A DNA stretch of 57,335 nucleotides from Lactobacillus ultunensis DSM 16047. GTDB taxonomy: Bacteria; Bacillota; Bacilli; Lactobacillales; Lactobacillaceae. The stretch spans positions 1 through 57,335 of the forward strand of contig NZ_AZFO01000010.1 in assembly GCF_001436305.1 (NCBI RefSeq), written 5' to 3'. A program made the translations under genes and the position numbers. Positions 1,045 through 49,940 of this stretch are shown in pieces. How positions within the stretch are numbered: the first letter of the stretch is position 1; every line of letters begins with the position of its first letter. The notes below the pieces were generated by a model. That model ran no database searches, was not told where the DNA came from, and worked only from the letters and a program-made list of their open reading frames with translations.

Positions 1045-2088
1045 TTAATTTTCAGGTACACCTTGATTAAGTTCTTCAACAATTTGGGCAGCAGGTTTAA
1101 TTTCATGAATAAAACTTATGCCCATTCCAAATGAAGCATATCCGGTAGAAAGATCACCTTTAACCATGCCATTGATCATTCCCTGATAATTATTAGCTGC
1201 TGCAAAAATTTCTTTACCCGTTTTTCCTTCTTCATTCATCTTAGCAAGTTTATTTGGCAATTCTCCAGGTAGAGAACGATAAAAGGCTGGAACTGCTCGA
1301 TATAGCAACATTTTATCAGCATCATTATCAACGAGCATTTGCTTAATATTTTCAGCAAGTGGTGCCTCTTCACTAGCTAAAAATGCACTACCTATATACA
1401 CACCTTGAGCTCCTAGTGCAAAAGCAGCTTTAACTGTTCGAACATCACTTATTCCACCTGCAGCAACGACTGGTACACCATGCGCATGATCAACTACTAA
1501 AGGAACAATATCAAAAGTACCAATAACTTTAGTAGGAACTGTACCACCTTCATCAAATCCTGTAGCTCCAATTACATCAACTCCATTTTTAACAGCTTGT
1601 TCTGTATCTTCTGCAGTCGGTGTATTTGAACGATTAATGACTTTTATTCCATTGTCATGTAGAAGATCTACCCAGTTCTTGGACACAGTTTGACCAAAAC
1701 CACCAAAAATAGCAACAGGAACTTTTTCTTCCACCATTAACTTAAACATAGCATAAGCATCAGGATCGTCCTTAGGATCTTCATGAGTTCCTGCTAATTG
1801 AATACCAAACGGTTTATTAGTAATTGAACGAACACCTTTAATTTGTTCTTTCATCATATTTACGGCTCTATTACCACCAATGATGGAACCATTTTCTTTA
1901 GTGCCACAATCACTATGTTGGGAAGCACCACTAGTTGTATCAGGAACTACGTAACCGGCATTTACACCTAGAACGCCTAAGCCTCCTGCCTTGGAAACTG
2001 CACTAACTAAATGATAATTTGTCAAAGTATGCATTGGAGCTTGAATAATGGGCTTTTCAATTCCTAAAACTTTAGTCAACTTGTTCAT
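1045..2088 (-). CDS. Nitronate monooxygenase / FabK-like FMN oxidoreductase
   Basis: A 347-residue TIM-barrel flavoprotein of the 2-nitropropane dioxygenase family, which oxidises alkyl nitronates or acts as an NAD(P)H-dependent flavin reductase; cytosolic. The N-terminus has the family motif PIIQAPM (13-19) and GGLGVLG. The FMN-phosphate region has AAGGISD (209-215) and GAQGVYIGS (226-234). The usual active-site pattern GGH is replaced by GG followed by Thr183, so classic nitronate chemistry is doubtful and a generic flavin-reductase role is possible. The start has an AGGTGA ribosome site 6 bases upstream. It stands alone behind its own promoter, whose upstream 27 bases nearly duplicate those before the OYE operon at 9214, implying shared control. 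Confidence 0.85.
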   Translation of the reverse strand: MNKLTKVLGIEKPIIQAPMHTLTNYHLVSAVSKAGGLGVLGVNAGYVVPDTTSGASQHSDCGTKENGSIIGGNRAVNMMKEQIKGVRSITNKPFGIQLAGTHEDPKDDPDAYAMFKLMVEEKVPVAIFGGFGQTVSKNWVDLLHDNGIKVINRSNTPTAEDTEQAVKNGVDVIGATGFDEGGTVPTKVIGTFDIVPLVVDHAHGVPVVAAGGISDVRTVKAAFALGAQGVYIGSAFLASEEAPLAENIKQMLVDNDADKMLLYRAVPAFYRSLPGELPNKLAKMNEEGKTGKEIFAAANNYQGMINGMVKGDLSTGYASFGMGISFIHEIKPAAQIVEELNQGVPEN

Positions 2089-2128: not shown

Positions 2129-2178
2129 ATTCTATATCTTGTTAATAAAAAAACAAGTACGCAGATTTTTATGCCTTA
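2129..2178 (-). promoter_or_regulatory. Promoter and shared upstream motif of the nitronate monooxygenase gene
   Basis: On the minus strand a TTGTTT -35 (2151-2156) and TAGAAT -10 (2129-2134) are separated by 16 bases. The 27 bases at 2152-2178, covering the -35 and the region upstream, match 9287-9313 before the OYE operon at 26 of 27 positions. The conserved core reads ATCTGCGTACTTGTTT. Such long identity outside coding DNA suggests a binding site for one regulator; the HxlR protein encoded at 9418 is the obvious candidate by inference. Confidence 0.7.
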
Positions 2179-2182
2179 TAAA

Positions 2183-2771: not shown

Positions 2772-3527
2772 TTATATTTTTGACATAGGATAAAATACAA
2801 TCTGTTCAACTTTGTTCCAAGGAACAATTAAATCATCACTGGCGTGAGGACAGGAAACAGCATTCGCTGAATTTTCAAGATCTTTTTCAGGATTATAAGC
2901 GACTTGATCAATAATGCGCTGTTGATGATGAGCAAATACGAATTCTTGTTTAATAATTGTTAATTGATAATCATCATTCGTTAAAAGTCGTAGCTTTTTT
3001 TCAAAGGAACTTAAATTCTCTTCTGGCATGGTAATATTCATTTTTATTTTTTTATTTTTATCCATTGCAGCCAAAACGTTGCCACGATTTTGCCCAATGA
3101 GAGCTACTATTTGACTATAATGTCTTTCTTCAACCTCAAGTTCAACTTTATTGAACGCAGATAAAATTTTTACCGCATTTCTAGCTCTTAATTTCATCAA
3201 TCCCTGTCGCACAGCACGTAAAGCGGCATTGCGATAATCACTTGCATGACTATATTTCGTTTGTTGACTTCCTCCGATTAAAGTTATTTTAATGTCAGTT
3301 AAAGGAGAATTAGTTAACACTCCTAATAGCTTATTAGATTTGAGAACAGTCATAATCTGTTTTTGCCATTTCTTATCTAATAGTCCATGAGGAATTTTAT
3401 TTTCTAATCGAATACCACTATTAGGTGAGCCAGGTTCTAATAAAAGATGCACTTCTGAAAAATGCCCAGAAGGTGAATAAAAACCAACACCTTCTATCTT
3501 TTCTGTAATAGTTTCACAATATTCCAT
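2772..3527 (-). CDS. GTPase-less EF-G / TetM-type C-terminal domain protein
   Basis: A 251-residue protein that resembles only the C-terminal half of elongation factor G and ribosomal protection proteins. The N-terminal part (EGVGFYSPSGHFSEVHLLLEP, about 12-33) matches the start of EF-G domain IV. SPLTDIKITLIGG, then SHASDYRNAALRAVRQGLMK, matches the end of domain IV and the helix before domain V. NRGNVLAAMDKN lies in the domain V-like part. There is no G domain upstream: the gene has its own AGAGG ribosome site and ATG just after a terminator. It may be a domain-only derivative that touches the ribosomal A site, or a 5'-truncated relic of a Tet-like factor. Tetracycline resistance is not implied. 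Confidence 0.65.
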   Translation of the reverse strand: MEYCETITEKIEGVGFYSPSGHFSEVHLLLEPGSPNSGIRLENKIPHGLLDKKWQKQIMTVLKSNKLLGVLTNSPLTDIKITLIGGSQQTKYSHASDYRNAALRAVRQGLMKLRARNAVKILSAFNKVELEVEERHYSQIVALIGQNRGNVLAAMDKNKKIKMNITMPEENLSSFEKKLRLLTNDDYQLTIIKQEFVFAHHQQRIIDQVAYNPEKDLENSANAVSCPHASDDLIVPWNKVEQIVFYPMSKI

Positions 3528-3587: not shown

Positions 3588-3976
3588 TTAAATTTTCTGT
3601 AAATTAATCAAATTTATTTTATTGCTTTTATCTGTTTTATCGTTAAAGGTGAGTGAACTATCAACCATGCCTTCATCACTAACCAAAGATAAAATACCAT
3701 TTTTTCTTTTAACTTTAATCCTGCACCTAACATTCCACTTTCTCGTTCGCTAATGTAAACTGGAATATGATAGTCATTTTCAAGTTTAATATCATAGTTA
3801 GGATCAAAATGATCAATAATTACGAGTTGGTAAGCAATTTCACCACCGCAACTACCCATATCTGAATAGATATTTGCGCCATCATTAAGATTCAAAAGCA
3901 ATAATTGATCTTTTTTTATTTTTTTCTCCAATAATTTTGCGGCATCTTCTTCAATAATTAGATTCTTAGTTTTCAT
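3588..3976 (-). pseudogene. HesB-like iron-sulfur cluster biosynthesis family protein, one frameshift
   Basis: The first about 90 residues (MKTKNLIIEEDAAKLLEKK, then GANIYSDMGSCGGEIAYQL) resemble the HesB-like small proteins annotated as iron-sulfur cluster biosynthesis family in lactobacilli; only one Cys is visible, so a cluster-carrier role is uncertain. After the A run near 3698-3704 the frame yields an unnatural tail ending at 3614. One added base gives NGILSLVSDEGMVDSSLTF and a stop at 3588, the expected family ending, for about 129 residues. The start overlaps the end of the DsbA-like gene by 11 bases, with an AGAGGA ribosome site inside that gene. It is the last gene of the operon. 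Confidence 0.65.
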
Positions 3977-4850
3977 TTTTTATCCTCTTATAAAAACTAA
4001 CATCACGATATTTACTTTCTTTTACCTTGTTTTGCTTTATTAAAGGTAAAATTGCGGTTTTTAGCTCAGTCTCATCATCTATATCAAATAATTCTTCAAG
4101 TTCAATTGCAGAAATAGTTTCAAACTTAGCCATAATTTTTTCTAACGAATCACTATTGAGAGGTATATCAGATTCTGTCAATTTATTACCTGTAATTTTT
4201 TCTAGCAATTCAACCCATTGTGAATAGTTGATTAAGGCATTAGCGAGATAGGTCTTGTCATGATAAGTAATCGTTGCGGAGGGCAATTGCTTGATTTGCA
4301 ATTTTTCTGTAATTCTCTGCAATTGATCAAATTCATTTTCTACTTCATTACTATTTAAAGTTTGTATAAATTGACTTTCATTTACACCATACTTATTTGC
4401 AATTTCTTGTAAAATTGCTAGATCTGTAGTTTGTTTATCCTGCAAAACAGTTGCCTGTTGAATTGCATATAAAAAGTCAAAACGACTTTCTGGTTTCAAA
4501 CGTTCCATAGCAAGATAAGCCAAAATCAGATTACGTGAACTAGTATGTTCTTCATCAAATAAATGCTTACCGGTACTCCCCATGATAATTGGCATTGATG
4601 AAATTTGTTGTTCTTGCAAATAAATTTGCATTAATTTAGCCCAATAAGTGTTTAGAGCCACCTTTTTGCCATAACGAGCTAAAGTGCTTTGATCAACAAA
4701 ATTATATATATCTTTAACTAACTCTACTGGCATAAAATCTAAATCAATTTGATTATCTAACTTAACCAATAACTTTCTTAATACTGGCCATAGTTCCCAA
4801 TGCATCCCCATCATTGGATCTGCAAAAATTCTAATTTGAATTTTATCCAT
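3966..4850 (-). CDS. DsbA-family thioredoxin-fold protein lacking CxxC
   Basis: About 294 residues from the ATG at 4850, chosen because an AAGGG site lies upstream; the GTG at 4859 is an alternative. The opening IRIFADPMMGMHWELWPVL fits the DsbA/FrnE/SpxH family, where FxDPxCPxCW carries the redox pair. Here both cysteines are gone (MMGM), so it cannot act as an ordinary dithiol oxidoreductase. The helical insert and the later LPSATITYHDKTYLANAL (cis-Pro loop region) keep the fold. No signal peptide, so cytosolic. SpxH-like relatives are adaptors for Spx degradation; an adaptor or scaffold role here is inference only. It sits between the tautomerase and HesB-like genes in the operon. Confidence 0.6.
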   Translation of the reverse strand: MDKIQIRIFADPMMGMHWELWPVLRKLLVKLDNQIDLDFMPVELVKDIYNFVDQSTLARYGKKVALNTYWAKLMQIYLQEQQISSMPIIMGSTGKHLFDEEHTSSRNLILAYLAMERLKPESRFDFLYAIQQATVLQDKQTTDLAILQEIANKYGVNESQFIQTLNSNEVENEFDQLQRITEKLQIKQLPSATITYHDKTYLANALINYSQWVELLEKITGNKLTESDIPLNSDSLEKIMAKFETISAIELEELFDIDDETELKTAILPLIKQNKVKESKYRDVSFYKRIKNEN

Positions 4851-4861
4851 TTCAGTCACCC

Positions 4862-5212
4862 TTATCTTGCAAATGCATAACCGCTAGCACCAAAGACCGG
4901 AATATCACGATAATCGATAAAAATATTCTCTGGCTTTACATTTAGAATCTCATTAATACTTTTTGACATATAAAGTGAAAATTCTGGATAACCTTTATGG
5001 CTCTCATTGCCGAAAACTGCTACATCGAGAAAAGCCATCTTTTGACTATCTTCTCCACGTAAGTACATCGAAGTATTAGGTTCAAACATTACCATCAGTG
5101 ATTGTTCACTTTTGCCTGGTACAAAAGCAATGGCCTTACCTAACTCTTTCTTAATTTCTATTTCTTGTTCTTTAGTGATTTTTTGATTTGCTCTTACTGT
5201 AATAAATGGCAT
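4862..5212 (-). CDS. MIF-like tautomerase
   Basis: A 116-residue tautomerase-superfamily protein. It begins MPFITVRANQ, so removal of Met exposes Pro-1, the catalytic base of the family. The C-terminal half GYPEFSLYMSKSINEIL, then PENIFIDYRDIPVFGASGYAF, follows the pattern of macrophage migration inhibitory factor (longer than 60-residue 4-oxalocrotonate tautomerases). Expected activity is keto-enol tautomerisation of phenylpyruvate-like substrates as a homotrimer. It starts 2 bases after the upstream hydrolase, with an AAAGGTGA ribosome site, so it is translated in the OYE operon. A role in handling enol or unsaturated carbonyl intermediates produced by neighbouring OYEs is inference. Confidence 0.8.
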   Translation of the reverse strand: MPFITVRANQKITKEQEIEIKKELGKAIAFVPGKSEQSLMVMFEPNTSMYLRGEDSQKMAFLDVAVFGNESHKGYPEFSLYMSKSINEILNVKPENIFIDYRDIPVFGASGYAFAR

Positions 5213-5213
5213 C

Positions 5214-6086
5214 TTAGTTCACCTTTTCTTTCTGCCAATTTTTAATAATAGAAGCTATTTTTTCAGCCACTTCTTGTTCCTTTTCTTGATATGTATGCCC
5301 AGTTTCTTTGATAAAGATTAATTGATTCTTATCTTTGGTTGGCATATGGTTATTAATATTCTTTAAAAATGAGCTTGGATCTCCTTCCGTAAAGGTGTCA
5401 TAAGTTCCAATTAATAATGCTCCTGTTTTATGAATATTTTCTAATTGTGAAAAATCTCCTGCATCTCCAGAATGAACATTATCTATTACAGGACTATTTA
5501 GCCATTGCTCTGCTGTTCTTGCTTTTGCTGGCAACCAACCAAACATTGAAAACGACAACATTTCCTCTCCTTGACCATTTTTTACTTTGTCCATTATCTC
5601 TTGCTTTTCTGCATTACTTAAGTATGAAGTTAAGTAACGCACATTGGCCGGACTAAGGAAAATAAAATGATCAACTCTCGAATCATCATGAGTAGCTAGG
5701 TAATGAATCACTTTATTTGCACCCAAACTATGCCCTGCAAGGATTACATGGTGATAATTATGTTTTTGTGCAAAATCTAGATATGCTTCAATATCATTAT
5801 CGGCTTCATTAAAGTCCTCATTAAAAGAACCAATAATCTCTTTTTTACCAGTTACCTTGTTATTGCTTTCAATTTGTCCGAAAGCATCCCGAGTTTGAGC
5901 ATATAAGAAATCAATTTCATTTTCATTAAGAGTCTGCCCGATATTGACATAGAAAGGATTGGAATAGAAATTGCCATGGACTCCTGTAATTGCAATCATT
6001 AACCAATCGCTCTTCTTTTCGGAAAATAGAACACCTGTTAATTCCGTTCCTTTTTTGGTATAAACATTTAAAGCTTCATATTTCAT
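5214..6086 (-). CDS. Alpha/beta hydrolase B (serine esterase-like)
   Basis: About 290 residues from the ATG at 6086; an AGGA site lies inside the previous gene's stop region and the paralogue at 8092 starts at the same point of the fold. Longer frames upstream are OYE-B read in another frame. The nucleophile elbow is GHSLG within VILAGHSLGANKVIHYLATH. Late acid and base candidates are the Asp in GTYDTFTEGDPS and the His in ETGHTYQ. It resembles DUF1749-type alpha/beta hydrolases. The pair OYE plus hydrolase occurs twice in tandem, so both hydrolases probably process the same class of compound as the reductases. Substrate unknown. Confidence 0.8.
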   Translation of the reverse strand: MKYEALNVYTKKGTELTGVLFSEKKSDWLMIAITGVHGNFYSNPFYVNIGQTLNENEIDFLYAQTRDAFGQIESNNKVTGKKEIIGSFNEDFNEADNDIEAYLDFAQKHNYHHVILAGHSLGANKVIHYLATHDDSRVDHFIFLSPANVRYLTSYLSNAEKQEIMDKVKNGQGEEMLSFSMFGWLPAKARTAEQWLNSPVIDNVHSGDAGDFSQLENIHKTGALLIGTYDTFTEGDPSSFLKNINNHMPTKDKNQLIFIKETGHTYQEKEQEVAEKIASIIKNWQKEKVN

Positions 6087-6096
6087 ATCATTCATC

Positions 6097-7221
6097 CTAA
6101 TTAAGACCTGTTTGAACAGATGGTGGGAACATCGCATTACCAGCCAAAGTTCCATAAAGCATTGCTGGAGTGAAACGATATTCATCCATTCTTGACCAAT
6201 CAAATTTACTTTGAATTTGGTCTTCTTGACCATTTTTAATCATATCTACTAAGTGTGGATTAAGTTCAACTGAACCACCAACAGCTAAGAAATCAGCCCA
6301 ACCAGTATTAAATGCCTTCAAGCCGTCTTCTTCTGCAAATAAGTCACCAACTCCAATAAATGGAATCTTACCGTTGATTCGTTTATGGAATGCTTCCATT
6401 CTCGTTTCATGGGTATCACCGCCACGACGGATCTTTTTATAGAAGTTCCAAAGAGAAATGTGAATATACTGTAATGGCTTTTCAAGCAAATGATCGACTA
6501 ATCCTAAGGTTTCTTTCATTGTCAAACCATATTCACCTGGTTCTTCTGGTGAAAAACGATAACCGACAATGAAATCTGGACGATTGTACTTCTTACGTAC
6601 TTCGTCAATCGCATCAATGATTTCCATTGGGAAGTTCAATCTCTTTTCAAAACTACCACCCCAGTGGTCAGTACGTTGGTTGTATGTTGCAGAAACAAAT
6701 TGTTGTATTAACCAACCATTAGCACCGTGAATTTCTACCCCATCAAGACCGGCTTTAATTGCTAATTCTGCTGCGTGAGCAAATGAATGAACCATTTCTC
6801 TAACTTCCGCATCAGTCATTGCACGTGCACCACTGTATGGATAGTCACTTGGTGCTAATACATCATAACCTTGAGTCATCGAACGATCTGCTCGAATACC
6901 ACTGTGAGCGATTTGCAAGATACCTAAAGCACCTTGTTCATGAGAAATTTGTGCATATTCTTTTAAAGTCACAATATCTTCATCCCGAAATGCATTTGGT
7001 GATTCAAAACCAATTCCTGAAGGATGAACATTAGTAAATGGAATAATCCACATACCAAATCCTTTAAAACGATCATGCCAAAATCTTCTTGCAGCATCGG
7101 TCAATTCACCATTAGGACCTGAATCATAAACTGTCAATGGTGCCACTACCAAACGATTTTTAACTTTAACCCCATTATTAAATGTGTAACTTTCAAATAA
7201 TTTATCATACTTCTTATCCAT
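6097..7221 (-). CDS. Old Yellow Enzyme family NADH:flavin oxidoreductase B
   Basis: A 374-residue FMN TIM-barrel ene-reductase. The N-terminal VVAPLTVYDSGPNGELTD holds the FMN-contacting Thr. HGANGWLIQQF has His165 and Asn168, the usual pair that binds the carbonyl of unsaturated substrates. WGGSFEKRLNFPMEI is the family signature. The late phosphate loop reads GGSVELNP where most members, including OYE-A, have GR, so FMN binding may differ. Expected reaction is NAD(P)H-dependent reduction of activated double bonds or quinones. The stop is 10 bases before the hydrolase-B start, and hydrolase-A ends 10 bases upstream, so all are in one operon. Confidence 0.9.
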   Translation of the reverse strand: MDKKYDKLFESYTFNNGVKVKNRLVVAPLTVYDSGPNGELTDAARRFWHDRFKGFGMWIIPFTNVHPSGIGFESPNAFRDEDIVTLKEYAQISHEQGALGILQIAHSGIRADRSMTQGYDVLAPSDYPYSGARAMTDAEVREMVHSFAHAAELAIKAGLDGVEIHGANGWLIQQFVSATYNQRTDHWGGSFEKRLNFPMEIIDAIDEVRKKYNRPDFIVGYRFSPEEPGEYGLTMKETLGLVDHLLEKPLQYIHISLWNFYKKIRRGGDTHETRMEAFHKRINGKIPFIGVGDLFAEEDGLKAFNTGWADFLAVGGSVELNPHLVDMIKNGQEDQIQSKFDWSRMDEYRFTPAMLYGTLAGNAMFPPSVQTGLN

Positions 7222-7231
7222 TCTATTACCT

Positions 7232-8092
7232 CTAATATTTCCAATTTTCTTTAATAGTTTCTAATACCTTTTCGGCAACTTCTTGTTCTTTGTTACGATA
7301 AACATGGCTTGCATCTGTGATAAACAACAAAGTATTTTTATCTTTCTTCAACATATGATTATTGATATTTTTCAAATAGCGTTCTGGATTGCCACGGCTA
7401 TAACCGTCATGAGTTCCTATCAGCAACGCGCCAGATTGTTTTATGGCATGCACTTGCTTAAAATCCGCATTGGTTTCTATATGAGTATTGTTTAAAGTAT
7501 TGTCGGTTAACCAATTCCATCCTGTTTGAATTATGCCTTTTTGCCATTTAAATAATTTAAATGGCATTACCTCATCAGCATTTCCCAGTGTAATTTGTTT
7601 CTTTAAATAAAGACGCTCTTTATTAGAAATGCGATCCCTTAGACTATCGACATTTACAGGACTCAAGAAAAAGAACTTATCAATCCCACTATCGGGATGA
7701 GTAGCTAAATAATGAATCACCTTATTTGCACCCAATGATTGACCACCCAGAATGATATGTTCATAACTTTGGTTCATCGCATAATCAAGGTATGCTTGAA
7801 CTTCATCATCACTACGGGAAAAGTTTTCATATTCAGCACCATAGTATTCAATTTGTTTGGTGTTTTGATTAACGGCTTTGGTACGATTAAAAGCATCAAG
7901 TCCATGAGCTACGATAAAATCGATCTCATTTTCACTAAGTAAACTACCAATATTTTTATAAAAACGATTGCTTCTGATATTTCCACCAACTCCGGTCATT
8001 GCAATAAAGGCCGTTTTGGCTTTTTTGTTAGTAAATTTCACTCCGGCAAGTTGAGTACCATTTTTCATAGTAACTTTAATGTTTTGTCGCAT
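7232..8092 (-). CDS. Alpha/beta hydrolase A (paralogue of hydrolase B)
   Basis: About 286 residues. Two ATGs lie side by side; the second (8092) is preferred because the GGAGG site is 6 bases before it. The elbow is GQSLG in HIILGGQSLGANKVIHYLA, with the Ser retained and the usual His of GHSLG changed to Gln. The candidate His is in ITDASHVYRNKEQEVAEKV. It is clearly homologous to hydrolase B along its length (shared KVIHYLATH, FFLSPVNV and INNHMLKKDKNTLLFI patterns). The gene starts immediately after OYE-A; its ribosome site is formed by the last codons of OYE-A. Confidence 0.8.
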   Translation of the reverse strand: MRQNIKVTMKNGTQLAGVKFTNKKAKTAFIAMTGVGGNIRSNRFYKNIGSLLSENEIDFIVAHGLDAFNRTKAVNQNTKQIEYYGAEYENFSRSDDEVQAYLDYAMNQSYEHIILGGQSLGANKVIHYLATHPDSGIDKFFFLSPVNVDSLRDRISNKERLYLKKQITLGNADEVMPFKLFKWQKGIIQTGWNWLTDNTLNNTHIETNADFKQVHAIKQSGALLIGTHDGYSRGNPERYLKNINNHMLKKDKNTLLFITDASHVYRNKEQEVAEKVLETIKENWKY

Positions 8093-8095
8093 CAT

Positions 8096-9214
8096 TTACC
8101 TCCGTCTGCGAGGACGCGGATTACGATAAGCTAGATCAAGACCCTGTTTTTTAGCTTCAAGCATCGTATCAGTATAGCGATAGCGATCTTGATGGGCCCA
8201 ATCAAATTTTTTCTCAATCTTATCCTCTTGATTATTTCTAATCAGATCAATTAAATCTGGATTAAGCATAACCGCTCTTCCCATCGCCAAAAACTCTGCC
8301 CAGCCAGTGTTATAAGCATCAATTAAATCTTTCCCAGTAAATAATTCTCCAACACCAATCAAAGGCAGTTTTCCATTAATTCGATCATGAATGACTTGAA
8401 TTCTAGGCAATTTAGTATCCGCTCCACGTCGTACATGATGATAAAATCCTAATAAGGACACATGCAGATATTGCAATGGCTTGGTAACTAATTTATCAAT
8501 AAACTTTAATGTATCCGCCATTGTAAATCCTTGACGTGGTCGCTCAGGAGAAAAGCGATAGCCGATAATAAAATCAGGACGATTTAATTTTTTGCGAACT
8601 GCATCAATTTCATCAATGATAGCCAGAGCAAATTTGGTTCGTCTTTCAAAATCGCCACCCCAGCGGTCATCCCTGAAATTGATGTTAGGAGCGAAAAACT
8701 GTTCAATTAACCAACCGTTGGAGCCTTGAATTTCGACACCATCCATACCTGCTTTGATTGCTAATGTCGCTGCTTTTGCAAAACTATGTATTATTCGAAT
8801 TACCTCATCATCAGACATTTCTTCTGCAGAACGTATCTTAGATGGAGCTTCAACTCCATACCCTTGGGTCATCCATTTTCTGGCTTTATATCCTGAATGA
8901 CCAAGTTGCATAATTACTTTTGTACCTTGATCGTGACCGATTTTGACGTATTCTTTTAAAGTCTTAAGATGAATATTGCTAAAAGCATTTGGAGATTCAA
9001 AGCCTATACCGGAAGGATCAACATTAGTAAATGGCATAATCCACATTCCAAAACCATGTAAACGATCTCTCCAAAAGTTTCTAGCCGAATCAGTTAATTC
9101 ACCATTTGGACCTGAATCATAAACTGTCAATGGAGCTACCACTAAGTGGTTTTTAATAGATACGCCATTGTTTAAAACATATGGTGTAAACAATGGTTGA
9201 TATTCTTTTTTCAT
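8096..9214 (-). CDS. Old Yellow Enzyme family oxidoreductase A, His-to-Gln variant
   Basis: A 372-residue paralogue of OYE-B and first gene of the operon. It keeps VVAPLTVYDSGPNGEL, RWGGDFERR (184-192) and the phosphate loop MGRAVMLNPD (311-320). The substrate-binding motif reads EIQGSNGWLIEQF: the conserved His is Gln163 while Asn166 stays. This should change which substrates hydrogen-bond over the flavin. The protein ends PRPRRRR, and these codons (CGG AGG TAA) double as the ribosome site of the next gene, which explains the odd basic tail. A promoter with the shared 27-base motif lies upstream and an HxlR regulator is divergent. Confidence 0.88.
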   Translation of the reverse strand: MKKEYQPLFTPYVLNNGVSIKNHLVVAPLTVYDSGPNGELTDSARNFWRDRLHGFGMWIMPFTNVDPSGIGFESPNAFSNIHLKTLKEYVKIGHDQGTKVIMQLGHSGYKARKWMTQGYGVEAPSKIRSAEEMSDDEVIRIIHSFAKAATLAIKAGMDGVEIQGSNGWLIEQFFAPNINFRDDRWGGDFERRTKFALAIIDEIDAVRKKLNRPDFIIGYRFSPERPRQGFTMADTLKFIDKLVTKPLQYLHVSLLGFYHHVRRGADTKLPRIQVIHDRINGKLPLIGVGELFTGKDLIDAYNTGWAEFLAMGRAVMLNPDLIDLIRNNQEDKIEKKFDWAHQDRYRYTDTMLEAKKQGLDLAYRNPRPRRRR

Positions 9215-9263
9215 GTTGAACCTCTTTTCTATTTTACTTACTTTTTGTTAGCTGACATTTATT

Positions 9264-9313
9264 ATATTAAATTCTTAAAAAAATAAAACAAGTACGCAGA
9301 TTTTTATTCCTTA
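9264..9313 (-). promoter_or_regulatory. OYE operon promoter with shared 27-base motif
   Basis: Minus-strand TTGTTT -35 (9286-9291) and TAATAT -10 (9264-9269) are spaced 16 bases, the same geometry as at 2129-2156. The motif at 9287-9313 is 26/27 identical to 2152-2178 and overlaps the -35. Because it lies between the operon and the divergent HxlR gene, it is probably the HxlR binding site. Confidence 0.7.
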
Positions 9314-9315
9314 AA

Positions 9316-9346
9316 ATAAAAAAAGCCCGAGTTTATGGGCTTTTAA
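9316..9346 (-). terminator. Terminator-like hairpin between OYE operon and HxlR gene
   Basis: AAAAGCCC and GGGCTTTT form a perfect 8-bp stem. Read on the minus strand it is followed by a long T-rich run (TTTTTTTATTTT), as in an intrinsic terminator. No minus-strand gene precedes it, so it may shield the OYE promoter from antisense transcription or be a relic of a lost gene. Confidence 0.55.
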
Positions 9347-9417
9347 GATACTATTCTTATTAATCTGATTTTTTTTGTTAAAATTAAGTTAGTTAAAAAA
9401 TATCAGGTGAAGATAAA

Positions 9418-9821
9418 ATGAAAAAAATAAATATGATCAAATTGTTAAACGATTCAATGAAGAAATGCCCGAATATTGTCCTATTACTTATTCAATGAAA
9501 GTTTTAGGTTCAAAGTGGAAAATCCCAATTATTTTTAAGTTAATGATTGAAGATGGCCAGCATTACAACCATTTAAAAAGAATGATTGGCGACAATATTA
9601 CCAATTTTATGTTAACTAAAAGCTTACGTGAATTAGAAGCCGATGGACTGATTATTCGGCATGACGATCATCAAGTCCCTCCGTCTGTTACCTATCATTT
9701 AACACCCCTTGGAAAAGATTTAGCCATGACGATGAATCAATTATTTGACTGGGGACAAGAATTATATTCAAATAAAGAAAAAAATTCTTCCAATTCCATT
9801 GATCACCTGAAACAGCAGTAA
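9418..9821 (+). CDS. HxlR-family redox-type regulator, frameshift in A7 near start
   Basis: The open frame from 9465 encodes 118 residues (MPEYCPITYSMKVLGSKWKIPI), the winged-helix core of HxlR regulators. A better start is the ATG at 9418 with an AGGTGA site 7 bases before it. Adding one A to the A7 run at 9421-9427 would join it in frame, giving MKKNKYDQIVKRFNEEMPEYC. As written, the ATG at 9418 leads to a short dead-end frame. The Cys in EYCPITY corresponds to the N-terminal redox-sensing Cys of YodB/HypR-like members that respond to quinones or disulfide stress. It faces the OYE operon. Translation from 9465 lacks a clear ribosome site. Confidence 0.8.
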
Positions 9822-10178
9822 CCATCTTGTTTAAGAAAACTCATATCTTCAAACAAAGTGTACTCTGTATAAGAACCATCAATACTACGGGCCCATATCA
9901 CCCATCATGGTAATTACCTTTTGCCCCACCTTAAACTTGGAGCCTTCAAACGTCTTGGTAATAACACTTGCGCCTTCGATACCTAAGATACGTAGGAACT
10001 TGAAGTCAGGATCTAATTCTCCTTTACGACTAGTAACTTCAGATTCATTAACATCGAAGGCTTTAATTTGGATTAAATCATAACCATTCTTTACCTCAGG
10101 AATATCAACTTGACTAACTTTTAATTCATCAGTCTTACATGGCTTAGTAAGTACTACTGTATTCATTTTTTCTGTCAT
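9803..10178 (-). pseudogene. Truncated zinc-type alcohol dehydrogenase / quinone oxidoreductase
   Basis: The first 97 residues (MTEKMNTVVLTKPCKTDEL, then RILGIEGASVITKTFEGSKF) match the GroES-like N-terminal domain of MDR oxidoreductases, normally about 320 residues. The frame stops at 9885 after GDMGP. Removing one C from the CCC near 9890 restores GRSIDGSYTEYTLFEDMSF before the sequence ends at about 9803 against the convergent HxlR gene. The NAD-binding domain is wholly absent. It is a non-functional 5' remnant. Confidence 0.8.
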
Positions 10179-10214
10179 TTAAGTATTTACCCTGACGGTT
10201 TAAAACATTATTGG

Positions 10215-10580
10215 TTGATCCCAGCTAATCCAAGTTATTTTGATATTATGAATGCTTTTAATGACACAGATAATATCATTTGGAAACAAAGTACCAAGAT
10301 TAAGCCAGGTGATATTGTTTTCATGTATGTTGGTTCACCTATCTCTGCAATTATTCATCAATGTAAAGTGTTGGAAGTCAATATTCCTTATGATTACCAA
10401 GGTAAGAATTTAAAAATCACCCATGTAATGCGGATTCAACGTATTGCTTCTTATCCTAAAAACGAGTATACCTTCAAGAAGTTAGCTGATTATGATGTGC
10501 GCGCAATTCGTGGACCACGCCATGTTCCGGAGAAGTTGTTGAAGGATTTATTGAAAAGACAAAAAGCATCAAGCCACTAG
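10215..10580 (+). CDS. EVE-like domain protein, 5' end altered
   Basis: About 121 residues from a TTG at 10215. The conserved opening is YWLIPANPSYFDIMNAF, and in-frame codons for HYW lie upstream of the TTG, but no ATG or convincing ribosome site is present. The natural start appears lost where the gene abuts the decayed alcohol dehydrogenase, so expression is uncertain. The remainder (KPGDIVFMYVGSP, RAIRGPRHVPEKLLK) aligns with the protein at the left edge of the window. Family assignment to EVE/PUA-like base-binding domains is by resemblance. Confidence 0.6.
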   Translation: MIPANPSYFDIMNAFNDTDNIIWKQSTKIKPGDIVFMYVGSPISAIIHQCKVLEVNIPYDYQGKNLKITHVMRIQRIASYPKNEYTFKKLADYDVRAIRGPRHVPEKLLKDLLKRQKASSH

Positions 10581-10590
10581 CTTGATGCTT
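10554..10590 (-). terminator. Terminator of the aldo/keto reductase pair
   Basis: Perfect 11-bp inverted repeat AAGCATCAAGC with a 5-base loop, followed on the minus strand by TTTTTGTCTTTT. It overlaps the last codons of the EVE-like gene on the other strand. Confidence 0.75.
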
Positions 10591-10605
10591 AATTAATGAA
10601 CAGCT

Positions 10606-11475
10606 TTATCTTCTCAATTTTTTCAAACTTGAGCCAAAGATTTGTTCAATGGTAGTTGGGTCATGGTGGTCAAAGAATTGACTGACGTTCTTGTCCAAAC
10701 CAGCAATCTTCTTCATATCGTCATCACTTAATTCAAAGTCAAAGACATCAATGTTTTCCTTTTGACGAGTATCGTGTACTGATTTTGGAATAACGATAAT
10801 TCCACGTTGAAGAAGCCAACGCAAGATTACTTGACCGTTCGATTTGCTGTATTTTTCACCAATTTCGTGTAAAACCGGATTAGTGAAGATACCATCTTTA
10901 CCTTCCGCAAATGGAGCCCAGGCTTCAACAGTCACACCATCTTTTTGATTCCATTTAATCTCAGATTCACGTTGGAACTATGGATTAACTTCGATTTGGT
11001 TGACAGCAGGTCTTACATTACTCATCAATTGCAAATTTATCATTTGTTCAGGCCAAAAGTTTGAAACACCGATTGACTTAATCTTGCCAGCTTTCTGTGC
11101 ATCTTCTAAGGCACGCCAAGCACCAGCTACATCACCATAAGCTTGGTGTAAAAGCATCAAGTCAAGGTAATCAGTACCTAATTCTTCCAGGTCATTATTG
11201 ATAGACTTAGTTGCTTTTTCGTAAGTAAAGTTGGAAACCCATAATTTAGTAGTTAAAAAGATGTCGTCACGATTTACATCACTATTTTTAATTGCATCCC
11301 CAACTGCTTTTTGATTATTATAGGCTTCTGCTGTGTCAATTAGGCGGTAACCATTGGCAATTGCTGATTCAACAGCTTTAACTGCTTCGTCATGGTCCGG
11401 AATTTGAAAGACACCAAAACCCAGTTGAGGCATTTCATTGCCATCATTTAATTTCTTTGTTGGAATCTGTGCCAT
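10606..11475 (-). pseudogene. Aldo/keto reductase with in-frame amber stop
   Basis: From the ATG at 11475 (AGGAG 7 bases upstream) the frame runs MAQIPTKKLNDGNEMPQLGF to ...NQIEVNP and stops with TAG at 10978. The same frame continues without shift through FQRESEIKWNQKDG and EAWAPFAEGKDG to 10606. The stop replaces the Tyr expected in the family motif VNPYFQ, so this is a single-base nonsense mutation. All AKR landmarks remain on both sides: IDTAEAYNN (Asp, Tyr), TTKLW (Lys), LLHQ (His), and the cofactor segment PKSVHDTRQKENIDVFDF. It is about 66% like its intact neighbour by eye and looks freshly inactivated. Confidence 0.85.
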
Positions 11476-11490
11476 AGTATTTCTCCTCAT

Positions 11491-37689: not shown

Positions 37690-38550
37690 ATGAACAAAAT
37701 TGATGAACTATTAAAACAAGTTAAAGCTGCCGATGCCATAGTTGTTGGTGGCGGTAGTGGTATGTCAAATGCAGCCGGAATGGATTTTTGGTATTCAGCT
37801 AGTCCACTTTTTATGAAATATATGAAACCTTATTATGATAAATATCACTTCGAGGGAATTTTCAAAGGCTACTACACTCCCTTTGATTCAAAAGAAGAAA
37901 AATGGGCTTTCATGCTTTATGCTTACAAATTAATTTTTAATGAACCACCTCAAAAGCCAACATATGAGTATCTAAAGACAGTTATTGGCAATAAACCCGT
38001 TCACTATGTAACTACTAATCAAGACGGCTTATTCAAAAAGTATTTTGGTGAAGATGCAGTTAGCGAAATTCAAGGTTCTTGGTCTTTTATGCAAAGTTCA
38101 AATCCTGAAACAGATAAAAATTTATATGATGCTAAAAAGATTGTTAAAGAATTACTACCCAAAATAAAGAATTATAAGCTTGACTCACAATACTTTCCTA
38201 AGAGTCCTATCAATGATGCTGAATTGATTGCCTGGGTTCGTGGTCCCCAATTTTTAGAAGATAAACGCTACAACTATGAATATAAAAAATTCAATAAATT
38301 CTTAGCCAAGCATAAAGGCGAAAAAATACTCTTTATTGAAATGGGTGTTGGCCGGATGACACCGATGTTTATCCAGGAACCCTTCTGGGATATGACGCAA
38401 TATATGAAAGATTCTTTCTATATTAATATCAATCCGAAAGATGCTTTAACTAATCCAGTAATCCGTGATCGTTCTCTTTTGATTGGTGATGATATTAATG
38501 AAGTTCTTAAAGAAGCTGCTGCAAAGATTAAGGAGGAAAAACATGACTAA
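37690..38550 (+). CDS. SirTM-like sirtuin (NAD-dependent deacylase/ADP-ribosyltransferase)
   Basis: 286 residues. The NAD site is VVGGGSGMSNAAGMDFW (about 18-34), TTNQDGLFKKYF (Asn110, Asp112) and EIQGSWSFMQSS, where Gln128 stands in place of the catalytic His of standard sirtuins. That Gln is characteristic of SirTM (class M) sirtuins, which ADP-ribosylate GcvH-like proteins. No zinc-binding CxxC pairs are present. The partner genes usual for SirTM (macrodomain, GcvH-L, LplA2) are not in this window. Overlaps the next gene by 8 bases. Confidence 0.75.
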   Translation: MNKIDELLKQVKAADAIVVGGGSGMSNAAGMDFWYSASPLFMKYMKPYYDKYHFEGIFKGYYTPFDSKEEKWAFMLYAYKLIFNEPPQKPTYEYLKTVIGNKPVHYVTTNQDGLFKKYFGEDAVSEIQGSWSFMQSSNPETDKNLYDAKKIVKELLPKIKNYKLDSQYFPKSPINDAELIAWVRGPQFLEDKRYNYEYKKFNKFLAKHKGEKILFIEMGVGRMTPMFIQEPFWDMTQYMKDSFYININPKDALTNPVIRDRSLLIGDDINEVLKEAAAKIKEEKHD

Positions 38551-39880
38551 AGAAGCTGCAAGTACTGCAAAAGAATGGATTGACAACGCAGATGCAATTT
38601 TAGTAACTGCAAGCAATGGTTTCTCTATTTCTGAAGGATTAAACTTATTTGCTAACGACAAAAAATTACGTGAAGTTTTAGGAGATCTGGTAGATAAATA
38701 TCATTTACCTAATATCTTAACTGCTCTCTCATTTGATTATCCTAATGCTTTAGATAAGTGGCGAGCATACGCCAGAATAATCGAATATTACGGTAATAAT
38801 TATGAAAAAACCAACTATATGCAAGATTTGAAAAAGATCATTGCTGATAAGTCATATTATATTTGGACTTCAAATATCGATCATCATTTTGAGCTAGCTG
38901 GTTTAAACAATACTTTTGAAATAGAAGGCAACTGGTTCGAGGCTATTTGTTCCAAGAACCCAAAGAAACATGGTATCTTCAGATTAGGTGAAAAGATCCA
39001 CGAAATTTATCAAAAAGATCAAGCAGGCACTTTGACTGAAGATGATATTCCCAAATGTGATCAATGTGGAGCTCCTTTATCTCTAAATTTACCTGGTGAT
39101 AACTTCCAAATTAACCAACAAAAATTAGCAGGTTTCCAAAGCTTTATCGAAAATAATGAGAATAAAAAACTTCTAGTATTAGAATTAGGCATAGGTCCAC
39201 AAAATCAAATGATTAAGGCCCCAAGTATGCAGTTAGTCGCTTCATCCCCTAATATTCACTACATTACTATTAATAAGGGACAATTGTTTATTCCAGATTC
39301 GATTAAAGACAGATCAATTGGGTATTCCGCTTCAATCGGCACTGCCTTTAAAGAGTTATTAACTGGTAAAAGTTTTGGTGCTCAGACTCAGGGACCAGAA
39401 AAGGTTAAGTCTAAACCACAATTAACGCCTGCACAGATCAAAAAGCAGGAAAAAATGATGCGGCTTTTCTATCCTAATTATATGGTTGATCAAGGTTTCC
39501 GCCCTGGAAGCTTTCCTATGTATCTAATGGTTGATGATAAGCATCCTTCACATCTGCACACTGTTCAATATGGGCAATCTTGGATGTACTCTATGGGAGA
39601 TGCAGCTGTCGTTCACTGCTTTACACAAGAAGGACAATATTATAAAGTACGGTTAGGTCTTGATAAGAGCAAAGGCGAAGTTCATGGTTTTTATGCAGAT
39701 CCAGGTACCTTTGTTGCGATAGAAGATACTGATGATGCAGGCGTAGGCTTTTCACAAATTAGTACTGAAATTCCAACTAATAGTTCAGGTGCAATTATGG
39801 TTCCAAGAATTGACAAACTGATTCAGCTGTTCCCTGATCAAAGAGACATTATTCAACGACTTGCAACACCTGAACCATAA
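38543..39880 (+). CDS. Degenerate sirtuin paralogue with extra C-terminal domain
   Basis: 445 residues from the ATG at 38543 (AGGAGG 8 bases upstream; the frame is open further but lacks a start signal). The first about 290 residues follow the sirtuin fold: ILVTASNGFSISEGLN in place of GAGxSxxxG, WTSNIDHHFELAGL, and one CDQCG zinc pair. Both the GAG loop and the catalytic position (EIEGNWFEA) are changed. Residues about 305-445, after QLTPAQIKKQEKMMRLFYP, are an unfamiliar domain with HTVQYGQSWMYSMGDAAVVH and YYKVRLGLDKSKGEVHGF. It may be a regulatory partner of the preceding sirtuin. Confidence 0.7.
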   Translation: MTKEAASTAKEWIDNADAILVTASNGFSISEGLNLFANDKKLREVLGDLVDKYHLPNILTALSFDYPNALDKWRAYARIIEYYGNNYEKTNYMQDLKKIIADKSYYIWTSNIDHHFELAGLNNTFEIEGNWFEAICSKNPKKHGIFRLGEKIHEIYQKDQAGTLTEDDIPKCDQCGAPLSLNLPGDNFQINQQKLAGFQSFIENNENKKLLVLELGIGPQNQMIKAPSMQLVASSPNIHYITINKGQLFIPDSIKDRSIGYSASIGTAFKELLTGKSFGAQTQGPEKVKSKPQLTPAQIKKQEKMMRLFYPNYMVDQGFRPGSFPMYLMVDDKHPSHLHTVQYGQSWMYSMGDAAVVHCFTQEGQYYKVRLGLDKSKGEVHGFYADPGTFVAIEDTDDAGVGFSQISTEIPTNSSGAIMVPRIDKLIQLFPDQRDIIQRLATPEP

Positions 39881-47103: not shown

Positions 47104-48162
47104 ATGGAAAAAGATCAGTATTATATGAACTTGGCTTTACAAGAAGCTAAAAAAGGTCGCTTTCAGACTTGGAAAAACCCAATGGTTGGTGCTGTGATCG
47201 TTAAAAATAATCAAGTACTAGCTACCGGACACCATATTCATTATGGTCAAAATCATGCTGAACGCGATGCCATTTCAAAACTAACCCCAGAACAATTATT
47301 TAATTCAACTTTATATGTCACTCTTGAACCATGCAATCATTATGGAAAACAGCCTCCCTGCTCTGATTTAATTGTAAAAAGTAAGATCAAGCGAGTAGTT
47401 ATTGGACAAGTAGATCCGCATAAGTTGGTTACTGGTAAAGGAATTGCTAAATTAAAAAGTCACAATATAGAAGTTAAAACCGGAGTTTTAACTAGCAAAA
47501 TTGAAGAACTTAATAAATTCTATAATTACTTCTACCGAAATAATAAACCGTGGATCACCATCAAAGAAGCTACGAGTCTGGATTACCGTGTTAGTCAAAA
47601 TAAGAATACTCGTACGAATATCACTAACCAGTCAGTTTACTTCAGAGTACATCAAGAACGTGCAAATTATCAGGCAATCATGATTGGTTCAAGTACTGCA
47701 ATTATTGACGATCCTTCACTACTTACATCAGTTAAGACCGACTATCCACCAATTAGAGTTATTGTTGATCGTCGTGGGAGACTTTTAAATCATTTAGATT
47801 TGAAAGTCTTAACCGATCATCAAAGTCTAACCTGGATTTTCACTCAAAACAAGGATTTAATACGGAAAAAATTCAATGATAATATTCAAGTTTTATTGAT
47901 GAAAAGTAATGAATTGAGTGAAGTAGTTAATAAGCTAGCTCAAAGGGAAATTCAATCAATTTATGTCGAAGGTGGTCCCACTTTAGCCAGATCATTTTTG
48001 AATGAAGACTTAGCTAATGAGTTGATCGACTATATTGCCCCTACTTTTTTAGGAAGTGCCGGGCCAGCTGGAGTTTTACCAAGAGGTAATCTCAATTTAC
48101 ATAATGTACAAATTGAAAACCTAAATAACAATATAAGAATTGACGGTGAGATAAATGTTTAG
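47104..48162 (+). CDS. ribD: Bifunctional riboflavin deaminase/reductase
   Basis: 352 residues. N-terminal zinc deaminase: HAE at 51-53, with C77 and C86 in LEPCNHYGKQPPCSD. The C-terminal reductase runs from about 150, with YQAIMIGSSTAIIDDPSLL and IYVEGGPTLARSFL. It converts the GTP cyclohydrolase II product to the ribitylamino-pyrimidine phosphate. AGGAAGTGA upstream. First of four tightly packed rib genes under the FMN riboswitch. Confidence 0.97.
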   Translation: MEKDQYYMNLALQEAKKGRFQTWKNPMVGAVIVKNNQVLATGHHIHYGQNHAERDAISKLTPEQLFNSTLYVTLEPCNHYGKQPPCSDLIVKSKIKRVVIGQVDPHKLVTGKGIAKLKSHNIEVKTGVLTSKIEELNKFYNYFYRNNKPWITIKEATSLDYRVSQNKNTRTNITNQSVYFRVHQERANYQAIMIGSSTAIIDDPSLLTSVKTDYPPIRVIVDRRGRLLNHLDLKVLTDHQSLTWIFTQNKDLIRKKFNDNIQVLLMKSNELSEVVNKLAQREIQSIYVEGGPTLARSFLNEDLANELIDYIAPTFLGSAGPAGVLPRGNLNLHNVQIENLNNNIRIDGEINV

Positions 48163-48751
48163 TGGTTTAGTTCGTGGGGATGCTCACATAAAAAATATTA
48201 TTAAAAACGATGAAACAATTTTATTAACTGTAAGTTGCATTCCTGATTTTACTAAAAACTTAAAAATTGGAGATTCAATTGCAATTAATGGAACATGCCT
48301 AACAGTTGAAAAATTTACAGAAGATAGTTTTCAAGTCACAATGATGCCCCAAACCTATAAAAAGACTACTTTTAAAAATCTAAAGACTGGTGATCAGCTT
48401 AATGTAGAAAAATCATTAGAAATTGGACAACGGTTAGAGGGCCACATCGTTACCGGTCATGTTGATGATGTTGCTAAAGTAAAAAGGATTATTCCAAATG
48501 AAAATGCAATTGAAATCTGGTTTAAATTCCCTACACGCCTGGAAAATCAAATTGTGCCACAAGGTAGTATTGCGATCAACGGTGTTTCACTAACTGTTAT
48601 GGATACTAAAGATAATACTTTTTCAGTTGGATTAATTCCCCACACACAAGATGAAACTAATTTATCAGATTTAAAAGAAGGCTCAGAAGTCAATATCGAA
48701 ACCGATATTCTAGGAAAATATGTTGCGCAAAATTTAGAAAAGAGAGATTAA
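48155..48751 (+). CDS. ribE: Riboflavin synthase alpha subunit
   Basis: 198 residues of two lumazine-binding repeats: MFSGLVRGDAHI and GHIVTGHVDDVAKV begin each repeat; SIAINGTCLTVEKF and SIAINGVSLTVMDT are the paired barrel strands. It dismutates two 6,7-dimethyl-8-ribityllumazine molecules to riboflavin. Overlaps ribD by 8 bases. Confidence 0.96.
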   Translation: MFSGLVRGDAHIKNIIKNDETILLTVSCIPDFTKNLKIGDSIAINGTCLTVEKFTEDSFQVTMMPQTYKKTTFKNLKTGDQLNVEKSLEIGQRLEGHIVTGHVDDVAKVKRIIPNENAIEIWFKFPTRLENQIVPQGSIAINGVSLTVMDTKDNTFSVGLIPHTQDETNLSDLKEGSEVNIETDILGKYVAQNLEKRD

Positions 48752-48752
48752 A

Positions 48753-49940
48753 ATGGATGTTAAAAAAATTCAAAATGCTATCGATTGGATGAAAAAAGGC
48801 GGTTTAGTAATCGTGGCTGACGATGAAGACCGCGAATCAGAGGGCGATATGATTGGCCTAGGCTCAAAGGTTACACCAGAAAATGTAAACTTTATGACAA
48901 AGCACGCTCGTGGCTTGCTTTGTACTCCAGTAAGCAAGAAAATTGCAGAAAGACTAAAGTTGCCACAAATGCAACAAGACAACACTGACCCATATGGTAC
49001 CGCCTTTACTATCAGTGTTGATTACAAAACTACTACTACCGGTATTTCTGCATATGACCGAGCAACGACTATTAAAGCAATTGCGAATCCCAATTCTAAA
49101 CCTGAAGATTTCTTCAGACCAGGTCATTGTTTCCCATTGGTAGCTAAAGATGATCAAATCAAACAGCGAAATGGTCATACTGAAGCTTCAATTGCATTGG
49201 CCCACTTAGCTGGAGAACCGGAAGTAGCATATATCTGCGAAGTTATGAAACCAGATGGTCATATGGCTAGACGTACACAATTAAGACAAATCGCTAAAGA
49301 ATATCATATGCCTTTTTTAACCATCGCCGAACTGCAAGAATACATTAATTCTCCAGCGAGTAAACTTACAGACTTTGTAAATCTACCAACTGAATACGGT
49401 GAATTCAAAATTAAAAGTTATGGACATGGCAATGTTGCCTTAATTAAAGGTAATATTGATCCTAGCAAACCAGTACTAACTCGTGTTCATTCCAAGTGTC
49501 TAACTGGTGACACTTTTGGTTCTAAACGTTGCGATTGTGGTCCTCAACTTCATCAATCTATGAAAAAAATTGAAGAAAATGGCTCTGGTGTAATTCTGTA
49601 TCTCAACCAGGAAGGACGCGGAATTGGTTTGACCAATAAATTACGTGCCTACGCTTTACAAGATCAAGGACATGATACATATGAAGCCAATGAATTATTA
49701 GGATTCAAAGCAGACGAGCGTAACTACGATGTTGCAGCAAAAATGTTTAAAGACCTTGGAATTAAAGTCATGGATTTGTTAACCAATAATCCAGATAAAA
49801 TTGATCAATTAGCAGATTACGGTATTACTATCAATCAACGCATACCGCTAGAAATCAAGCCAAATAAGTTTGATTTGTTTTACTTAAAAACCAAGAAAGA
49901 AAAGTTCCATCACTTACTAAAATTGAAAGAGGCAGAATAA
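48753..49940 (+). CDS. ribBA: Fused DHBP synthase / GTP cyclohydrolase II
   Basis: 395 residues. The N-terminal half is DHBP synthase (DDEDRESEGDMIGLG and RPGHCFPL). The C-terminal half is GTP cyclohydrolase II: the zinc motif C-x10-C-x-C starts near residue 249 (KCLTGDTFGSKRCDCGPQL), followed by LYLNQEGRGIGLTNKL. It makes both starting blocks of riboflavin. One base separates it from ribE. Confidence 0.97.
   Translation: MDVKKIQNAIDWMKKGGLVIVADDEDRESEGDMIGLGSKVTPENVNFMTKHARGLLCTPVSKKIAERLKLPQMQQDNTDPYGTAFTISVDYKTTTTGISAYDRATTIKAIANPNSKPEDFFRPGHCFPLVAKDDQIKQRNGHTEASIALAHLAGEPEVAYICEVMKPDGHMARRTQLRQIAKEYHMPFLTIAELQEYINSPASKLTDFVNLPTEYGEFKIKSYGHGNVALIKGNIDPSKPVLTRVHSKCLTGDTFGSKRCDCGPQLHQSMKKIEENGSGVILYLNQEGRGIGLTNKLRAYALQDQGHDTYEANELLGFKADERNYDVAAKMFKDLGIKVMDLLTNNPDKIDQLADYGITINQRIPLEIKPNKFDLFYLKTKKEKFHHLLKLKEAE

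Follow-up and report, generated by a model that had tools for sequence, protein, structure and literature searches.

The 57,335 nt contig NZ_AZFO01000010.1 of Lactobacillus ultunensis DSM 16047 (hereafter, the window) is one complete contig of a 2.16 Mb draft genome. It raises the question of why two old yellow enzyme (OYE) type flavin reductases should share an operon with two serine hydrolases, a MIF-like tautomerase, and a DsbA-like protein, and on what compound such a set would act. The original prediction proposed a pathway that saturates, isomerises, and hydrolyses an unsaturated lactone or ester, or a detoxification unit for electrophiles. By sequence comparison, bacteria of several phyla share the reductase-hydrolase core, and one operator-like element heads the operons of Lactobacillaceae and, in the window, also a nitronate monooxygenase (NMO) family gene. 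The listing of open reading frames (ORFs) with their translations contains seven ORFs on the minus strand and a divergent HxlR-family gene on the plus strand. In operon order, the genes are separated by 0, 10, 10, 1, and 11 bases, figures that depend on the starts chosen for hydrolase B (HydB, 6086) and the DsbA-like gene (4850). The close packing of seven ORFs with gaps of 0-11 bases is confirmed, except that the last, HesB-like ORF has an 11-base overlap with the DsbA-like gene and is a frameshifted passenger. A consensus scan of the minus strand listed no terminator-like sites from the first to the last operon gene.

Since a DsbA-like query found no relative among the named genomes, the named species genomes were scanned with an alignment of four hydrolases, which yielded 30 loci, two of them only 27% identical and the other 28 at 45-62%. 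The 28 close matches and one Klebsiella plasmid from the protein search made up a set of 29 loci, in which all frames within about 6 kb of the hydrolase were searched with one profile per gene; these loci are not independent, two coming from one C. crustorum genome and several from close relatives. An OYE was found near the hydrolase in 28 of the 29 loci, the exception being L030, where only 1.2 kb of contig remain beyond the hydrolase. HxlR was detected in 20 loci, in some at only about 30% identity, and the tautomerase and the DsbA-like protein in 16 each. The latter two occurred together in 15 loci, were both absent from 12, and stood alone in two: L026 is cut by the contig end, and in L027 the tautomerase gene is followed by a symporter gene before the contig end, so that a DsbA-like gene may be truly missing. 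By these profile matches, the tautomerase and the DsbA-like protein are accessories to the core that as a rule occur as a pair.

The hosts belong to Lactobacillaceae, Selenomonadaceae, Pasteurellaceae, Desulfovibrio, Synergistota, Treponema, and Bacteroidota, in addition to the Klebsiella plasmid. The order was OYE-hydrolase-tautomerase-DsbA in C. kimchii and the Klebsiella plasmid, hydrolase-tautomerase-OYE-DsbA in C. crustorum and L. mudanjiangensis, and tautomerase-OYE-DsbA-hydrolase-OYE-hydrolase in Limosilactobacillus; two metagenome-assembled genomes of Selenomonadales had OYE-tautomerase-DsbA-hydrolase and tautomerase-DsbA-OYE-hydrolase, respectively. The gene set is constant while its order is shuffled, which argues for selection on the set. 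The conserved neighbourhood expected by the original prediction was thus recovered in other Lactobacillaceae genera, in differing order, and across phyla. As for the proposed members, the OYE, hydrolase, tautomerase, and DsbA-like genes recur, the HesB-like ORF falls out, and the NMO-family gene (1045-2088, minus strand) comes in. No paper describing an OYE-hydrolase-tautomerase-DsbA-like gene set was found in the open-licence literature.

Outside the core, no flanking ORF family was present in more than 6 of the 29 loci (Pfam was run on 20 of the 178 flanking ORFs). A flavodoxin/FMN-reductase type gene, a possible electron donor, lies near the OYE-hydrolase pair in six loci (L036 8266-8943 and L025 10976-11644 by Pfam; L017, L034, L037, and L039 by clustering), and an SbmA/BacA-type ABC transporter gene is found in four flanks (L034 12227-13924 by Pfam; L013, L018, and L029 by clustering).

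Few Lactobacillaceae have the hydrolase, and these are scattered: at E up to 1e-30, it was found in 8 of the 397 genomes sampled, from four genera. At this threshold it was not found in the other sampled genomes of the window's own genus, in which a remote relative with 28% identity exists. Phyla were intermixed in the drawn hydrolase and OYE trees, and in Limosilactobacillus hydrolase B branched with the anaerobes, OYE-B with the lactobacilli. Because of the mixed phyla and this discordant placement, the drawn trees point to cassettes transferred and recombined between lineages. A conjugative plasmid of Klebsiella pneumoniae (L043, NZ_CP045691.1 32201-36726) carries an OYE-hydrolase-tautomerase-DsbA-NMO row with a LysR gene upstream; no DNA-level match to its hydrolase-tautomerase-DsbA stretch was found in E. 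coli. In the window, related ORFs at 9-251 and 10215-10580 (65% identity over 79 residues) bracket the NMO gene, the operon, and the HxlR gene and may mark where an inserted block begins and ends; base 1 is the end of the contig. The GC content does not set the block apart as foreign (0.341 vs. 0.348), and a phage origin was rejected, the phage collection giving no match.

HydB (5214-6086, start 6086 or 6092; GHSLG) passes PF12146 (30.2 bits; cut-off 27) and three other hydrolase models, and hydrolase A (HydA, 7232-8095; GQSLG) on its own passes none; the two are 47% identical. The catalytic triad in a GxSxG frame, also kept in HydA, keeps Asp and His in all 32 rows and Ser in all but one, L034, which has Pro, as expected of serine hydrolases. 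The hydrolase profile found no close relative among solved structures (best match 3.6e-4). B-type relatives are 49-62% identical across phyla, and those beside the OYE type of the anaerobes are still 49-61% identical to HydB; what the clusters have in common is therefore the hydrolase, while the reductase varies. The divergence of the active sites between the two pairs was seen again: Gln stands in OYE-A at OYE-B His165, and in HydA Gln replaces His119 beside the nucleophile and Gly replaces His37. The six A-type OYEs group in one clade, and so do the six A-type hydrolases of the same loci (each 100/99), the two genes being adjacent in every case. C. crustorum, which like C. kimchii also has a B set, keeps its A pair apart as an operon preceded by an operator-like element, and no HxlR match lies nearby. 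The tandem in the window therefore unites two old modules; the duplicated pair stands as first described, but its duplication is old, a recent one being rejected on these grounds.

OYE-A (8096-9214) and OYE-B (6097-7221) belong to the OYE family by PF00724 (176.6 and 200.1 bits; cut-off 27) and do not reach the NCBIfam NamA equivalog cut-off of 431 (110.4 and 129.4 bits). They are 60% identical, and OYE-B shares 80% identity with its C. crustorum counterpart. The one hydrolase family is found with OYEs of two types. Lactobacillaceae, Pasteurellaceae, and Klebsiella have a YqiG-like type (its gene is split in Mannheimia, L022), and the anaerobes have another, shorter one with a single domain of about 320-365 aa and a C-terminal cysteine motif (CxSCNxCY...C), only 23-33% identical to the window OYE. 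Long branches separate the two groups (support 100/100).

Both types lack the tyrosine that is the usual proton donor; a nitronate may arise without concerted protonation, according to PMC3659409. The proton-donor Tyr of YqjM falls at position 170 of OYE-B, as placed through the YqjM alignment of L018 and the alignment of L018 with OYE-B. In the 28 aligned cluster OYEs, this position is Trp in 13, Phe in 15, and Tyr in none; both window OYEs have Trp170 along with Asn168 (and Gln165 in OYE-A, OYE-B numbering), and in this respect depart from classical ene-reductases of the NamA/YqjM type. The 28 comprise the two window OYEs and 26 of 37 OYE matches; duplicates (L005 and L011), two near-duplicates (L023), and split or partial copies (L022 twice, L026, and L039) were left out, as were the Klebsiella copy (Trp), an orphan from Erwinia (L044, Tyr), and a third OYE of L. 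caccae (Phe). As a control, homologs of both OYE types were taken from samples of 149 Bacillota genomes; 41 of 50 places outside the own genome were obtained, representing 37 distinct genes, three of them with internal stops. Tyr is kept in 33 of these 37 (Fisher's test, 2e-14), and no member of the hydrolase family was found beside the control OYEs within flanks of at most 1.5 kb.

The tautomerase of the window (4862-5212) scores just below the PF01187 gathering score (20.2 vs. 22 bits), and its family profile matches solved MIF structures in the PDB at 4.6e-11. The window protein has the catalytic N-terminal Pro2 and Lys34. Pro2 is kept by 13 of 15 rows, with irregular starts in the remaining two, and Lys34 by 12 of 15. 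A MIF-like match with 30.7% identity to the window tautomerase was seen in Subdoligranulum variabile (OY725852.1, 19307-19645). The DsbA-fold protein (3966-4850; a GTG at 4859 is possible too) matches PF13743 with 63.2 bits (cut-off 27) and contains no Cys. DPMMG occupies the CxxC place invariantly in all 14 rows, so the motif of thiol oxidoreductases is lacking; eight rows are wholly without Cys and the other six have 1-4 elsewhere. The best solved relative of the family profile is YjbH (6ghb, 5.5e-16, profile positions 107-282), with the N-terminal part matching weakly (7.9 bits). The likeness to this YjbH/SpxH adaptor is one of sequence, and the family differs from it in having no CxxC and in occurring in Gram-negative bacteria as well, in which we know of no Spx.

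The HxlR-family regulator (9465-9821, plus strand) matches PF01638 with 75.2 bits (cut-off 20.8) and is 75% identical to the C. crustorum copy. A CP motif with the N-terminal Cys (CPI in the window) is present in 11 of 15 aligned rows, as in HxlR redox regulators, the remaining four beginning after it through the chosen start. In the window, a homologous N-terminal frame without a start precedes 9465, after an A-run near 9424. An operator-like element resembling TTAAGGAAgAAAAATnTGCGTACTTGTT lies ahead of the first gene, whichever gene that is, in nine of nine Lactobacillaceae operons, and is absent from three other regions, upstream of convergent hxlR genes. The operon copy (9284-9314, minus strand) overlaps a -35 region inferred by eye, and a second copy (2149-2179, minus strand) lies ahead of the NMO gene. 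A 24-nt pattern with at most three mismatches, searched through the own genome, found only these two sites (9287-9310 before OYE-A and 2152-2175 before the NMO-family gene), and its reversed control none. A 19-nt pattern allowed at most one mismatch gave 17 sites in 14 of the 397 family genomes (reversed control, 5). The ten exact ones all lie before a gene of a cluster or before the NMO gene of the window; one of the seven inexact sites lies in a cluster, one by HxlR and TMEM175-like genes, two by HxlR and nitroreductase genes, and three at seemingly unrelated places. The element was present in 8 of 8 genomes with the hydrolase vs. 6 of the other 389.

A weight matrix built from ten sites was run on the 21 loci outside Lactobacillaceae, with eight mononucleotide shuffles of four loci as a control. 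In five loci, the best match (16.7-22.6 bits) lay at the cluster, beside hxlR in L030 and ahead of the OYE in L017, L018, L024, and L025, shuffled loci scoring at most 11.5 bits. By eye, no palindrome was seen in the element, and, as to a known motif, the literature matches listed for its core strings looked unrelated. The NMO-family flavoenzyme (nitronate monooxygenase/FabK-like; PF03060, 169.1 bits) has relatives in L019, L038 (the same gene as in L011), and L043, and is proposed as a member of the regulon on the strength of its upstream element. A terminator-like hairpin lies on the minus strand directly upstream of the operon copy (9321-9344). A TMEM175-like potassium channel gene (2350-2751) lies upstream of the NMO operator, and in another family genome a TMEM175-like gene adjoins an HxlR gene with a similar operator (L056, 1552-2163).

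We moderately favour the reading that the operon is a horizontally mobile, HxlR-controlled cassette in which an electrophilic compound is reduced and then hydrolysed in series. The compound or a related electrophile would modify the N-terminal Cys of HxlR, which would then leave the operator and allow induction. The OYE would transfer a hydride from FMN to an activated C=C bond, a quinone, or a nitro-alkene, and the product may be released as an enol, enolate, nitronate, or hydroquinone; such a product is proposed because Trp or Phe takes the place of the proton-donor Tyr. Where the accessory pair is present, the tautomerase would convert the enol form and the DsbA-like protein might help as an isomerase or carrier. 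The serine hydrolase would finally cut an ester, lactone, or activated C-C bond, and this cleavage would make the step irreversible. The A pair would be an old diverged copy serving a second substrate or a second bond. We infer HxlR binding, electrophile sensing, the order of reactions, the part of the DsbA-like protein, and the nature of the product; HxlR control, together with the nitroreductase genes by a similar operator in two other genomes, makes us lean towards electrophiles.

Several points weigh against this cassette reading. The tautomerase and the DsbA-like gene are both missing from the 12 loci noted above (and the latter perhaps from L027), and nine of the 29 have no HxlR match, with L040 and L043 carrying a LysR gene instead. 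The N-terminus of the window HxlR, a predicted binder, is out of frame in the assembly. Near the cluster, 16 of the 21 loci outside Lactobacillaceae have no matrix operator (at most 13.4 bits); the promoter read by eye at the operator was not listed by the consensus scan, and promoter-like sites were fewer than in shuffles (16 vs. 27.6). As the 28 OYEs are related, the absence of Tyr is fairly read as about two losses in two lineages, not as 28 independent cases. The controls are drawn from Bacillota only, with short flanks, and 4 of the 37 lack Tyr too, as does the L. caccae OYE, which adjoins no hydrolase and has Phe. In some OYEs, moreover, Tyr is not essential and water can take its role, as stated in PMC3659409.

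The lactone pathway of the original prediction is possible on the gene content: the OYE would saturate the ring of one dietary or plant compound that is an unsaturated lactone or ester (coumarin-like) and the hydrolase would open it, in catabolism or biotransformation. An ene-reductase with a serine hydrolase as the core would suit this, as would the many hosts that, judged by record titles, are gut or rumen bacteria or lactobacilli, the recurring transporter gene (4 of 29 loci), and the identity of the B-type hydrolase (49-62%) against that of the anaerobe OYE (23-33%), as if the hydrolase recognised one substrate. Yet no downstream catabolic gene recurs widely, non-core families being confined to at most 6 of 29 loci, the OYE lacks Tyr, coumarin-type chemistry needs no tautomerase, and none of the papers listed on coumarin deals, by title and opening of the abstract, with such a gene set; we consider this route doubtful. 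Unlikely, too, is a split ene-reductase, in which OYEs of two distant lineages would have lost the proton donor, perform hydride transfer only, and release an enolate or nitronate. The tautomerase and the DsbA-like protein would then ketonise the enol, an NMO-family enzyme would clear nitronate in the presence of oxygen, and the hydrolase would cut the product, with cassette and operator spreading between phyla in gut and food habitats.

Slightly less credible again is a general redox or quinone stress regulon without any pathway, in which the OYE and NMO would reduce quinones or nitro compounds and the other proteins repair or carry damage products. HxlR control, nitroreductase genes beside related operators, the NMO gene behind the same element, and the flavodoxin/FMN-reductase type genes near 6 of the 29 loci are consistent with it, as is the induction of OfrA by methylhydroquinone reported in PMC9152700. 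One hydrolase kept near two distant OYE types in shuffled clusters nevertheless speaks for a common substrate, and the DsbA-like family has no CxxC. That the genes are neighbours merely by chance or common ancestry is highly improbable: several Lactobacillaceae loci are indeed closely related, but the set is kept across phyla in varied orders and the operator keeps its place before whichever gene comes first.

Among known systems, the nemRA-gloA operon of E. coli likewise joins a repressor, an OYE, and a further enzyme acting on one reactive compound; it differs in its TetR regulator, its glyoxalase, and its classical OYE, and is not known to include a hydrolase or MIF-like protein. In B. subtilis, the thiol-based MarR/HxlR-kind repressors MhqR and YodB/HypR control flavin reductases, and mhq operons include a hydrolase; the enzymes differ, and an OYE-hydrolase-tautomerase-DsbA set is not known there. 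BaiCD and bilirubin reductase are the nearest models to the anaerobe OYEs, whose C-terminal Cys motif is suggestive of an iron-sulfur cluster; these OYEs are, however, far below the family cut-offs (eight scanned), have a single domain, and carry Phe at the Tyr position. OYE-B resembles the YqiG type (39.5% identity to a Deinococcus relative annotated yqiG and 36.7% to an S. aureus record), but the five nearest non-cluster Bacillota relatives found (L089-L093) keep Tyr, unlike the cluster OYEs. The S. aureus YqiG orthologue OfrA is induced by quinone and aldehyde stress, and the part of PMC9152700 consulted, in which it appears as electrophile-induced, describes no hydrolase, tautomerase, and DsbA-like set with it.

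The HesB-like ORF (3614-3976) matches PF01521 with 54.2 bits (cut-off 26.3) and is frameshifted at an A-run near 3700: its annotated tail matches 0 of 11 relatives, the tail in the other frame 10 of 11, several weakly. Its relatives occur in 36 of the 60 genomes that were searched (own genome included); its membership in the unit was rejected, as a blast of the window protein gave no match in the other cluster loci. Downstream of HxlR, 9885-11490 contains a truncated alcohol dehydrogenase gene and an aldo/keto reductase gene split by a stop, adjoined by intact-looking genes that we take to encode an aldo/keto reductase and a LysR regulator. This damage, the HesB-like frameshift, and the HxlR frame break may be assembly errors or decay. 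A free-standing 251-aa protein (2772-3527) consists of elongation factor G domains IV and V only, without the GTPase part (PF03764 above and PF00679 below the cut-off). Further along the contig, two adjoining genes presumably of SIR2 type are followed by a presumed TetR-like gene (37690-39880), and what we take to be a complete riboflavin operon (ribD, ribE, ribBA, and ribH; 47104-50408) shares the contig with the flavin enzymes.

OYEs serve widely as biocatalysts, and for most of them no natural substrate is known. The hydrolase found next to them in several phyla, frequently accompanied by a tautomerase, offers a way to get at their natural reaction directly. From the loss of the proton donor in two lineages, an altered chemistry is predicted that can be put to the test. 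The operator opens the way to an inducer screen in food-grade lactobacilli. The hosts, by record titles from ruminant, rabbit, koala, and other gut sources and from food and gut lactobacilli, suggest a compound common in these habitats. The recurring set, placed behind a common DNA switch in the window, suggests an undescribed way in which these bacteria handle reactive compounds.

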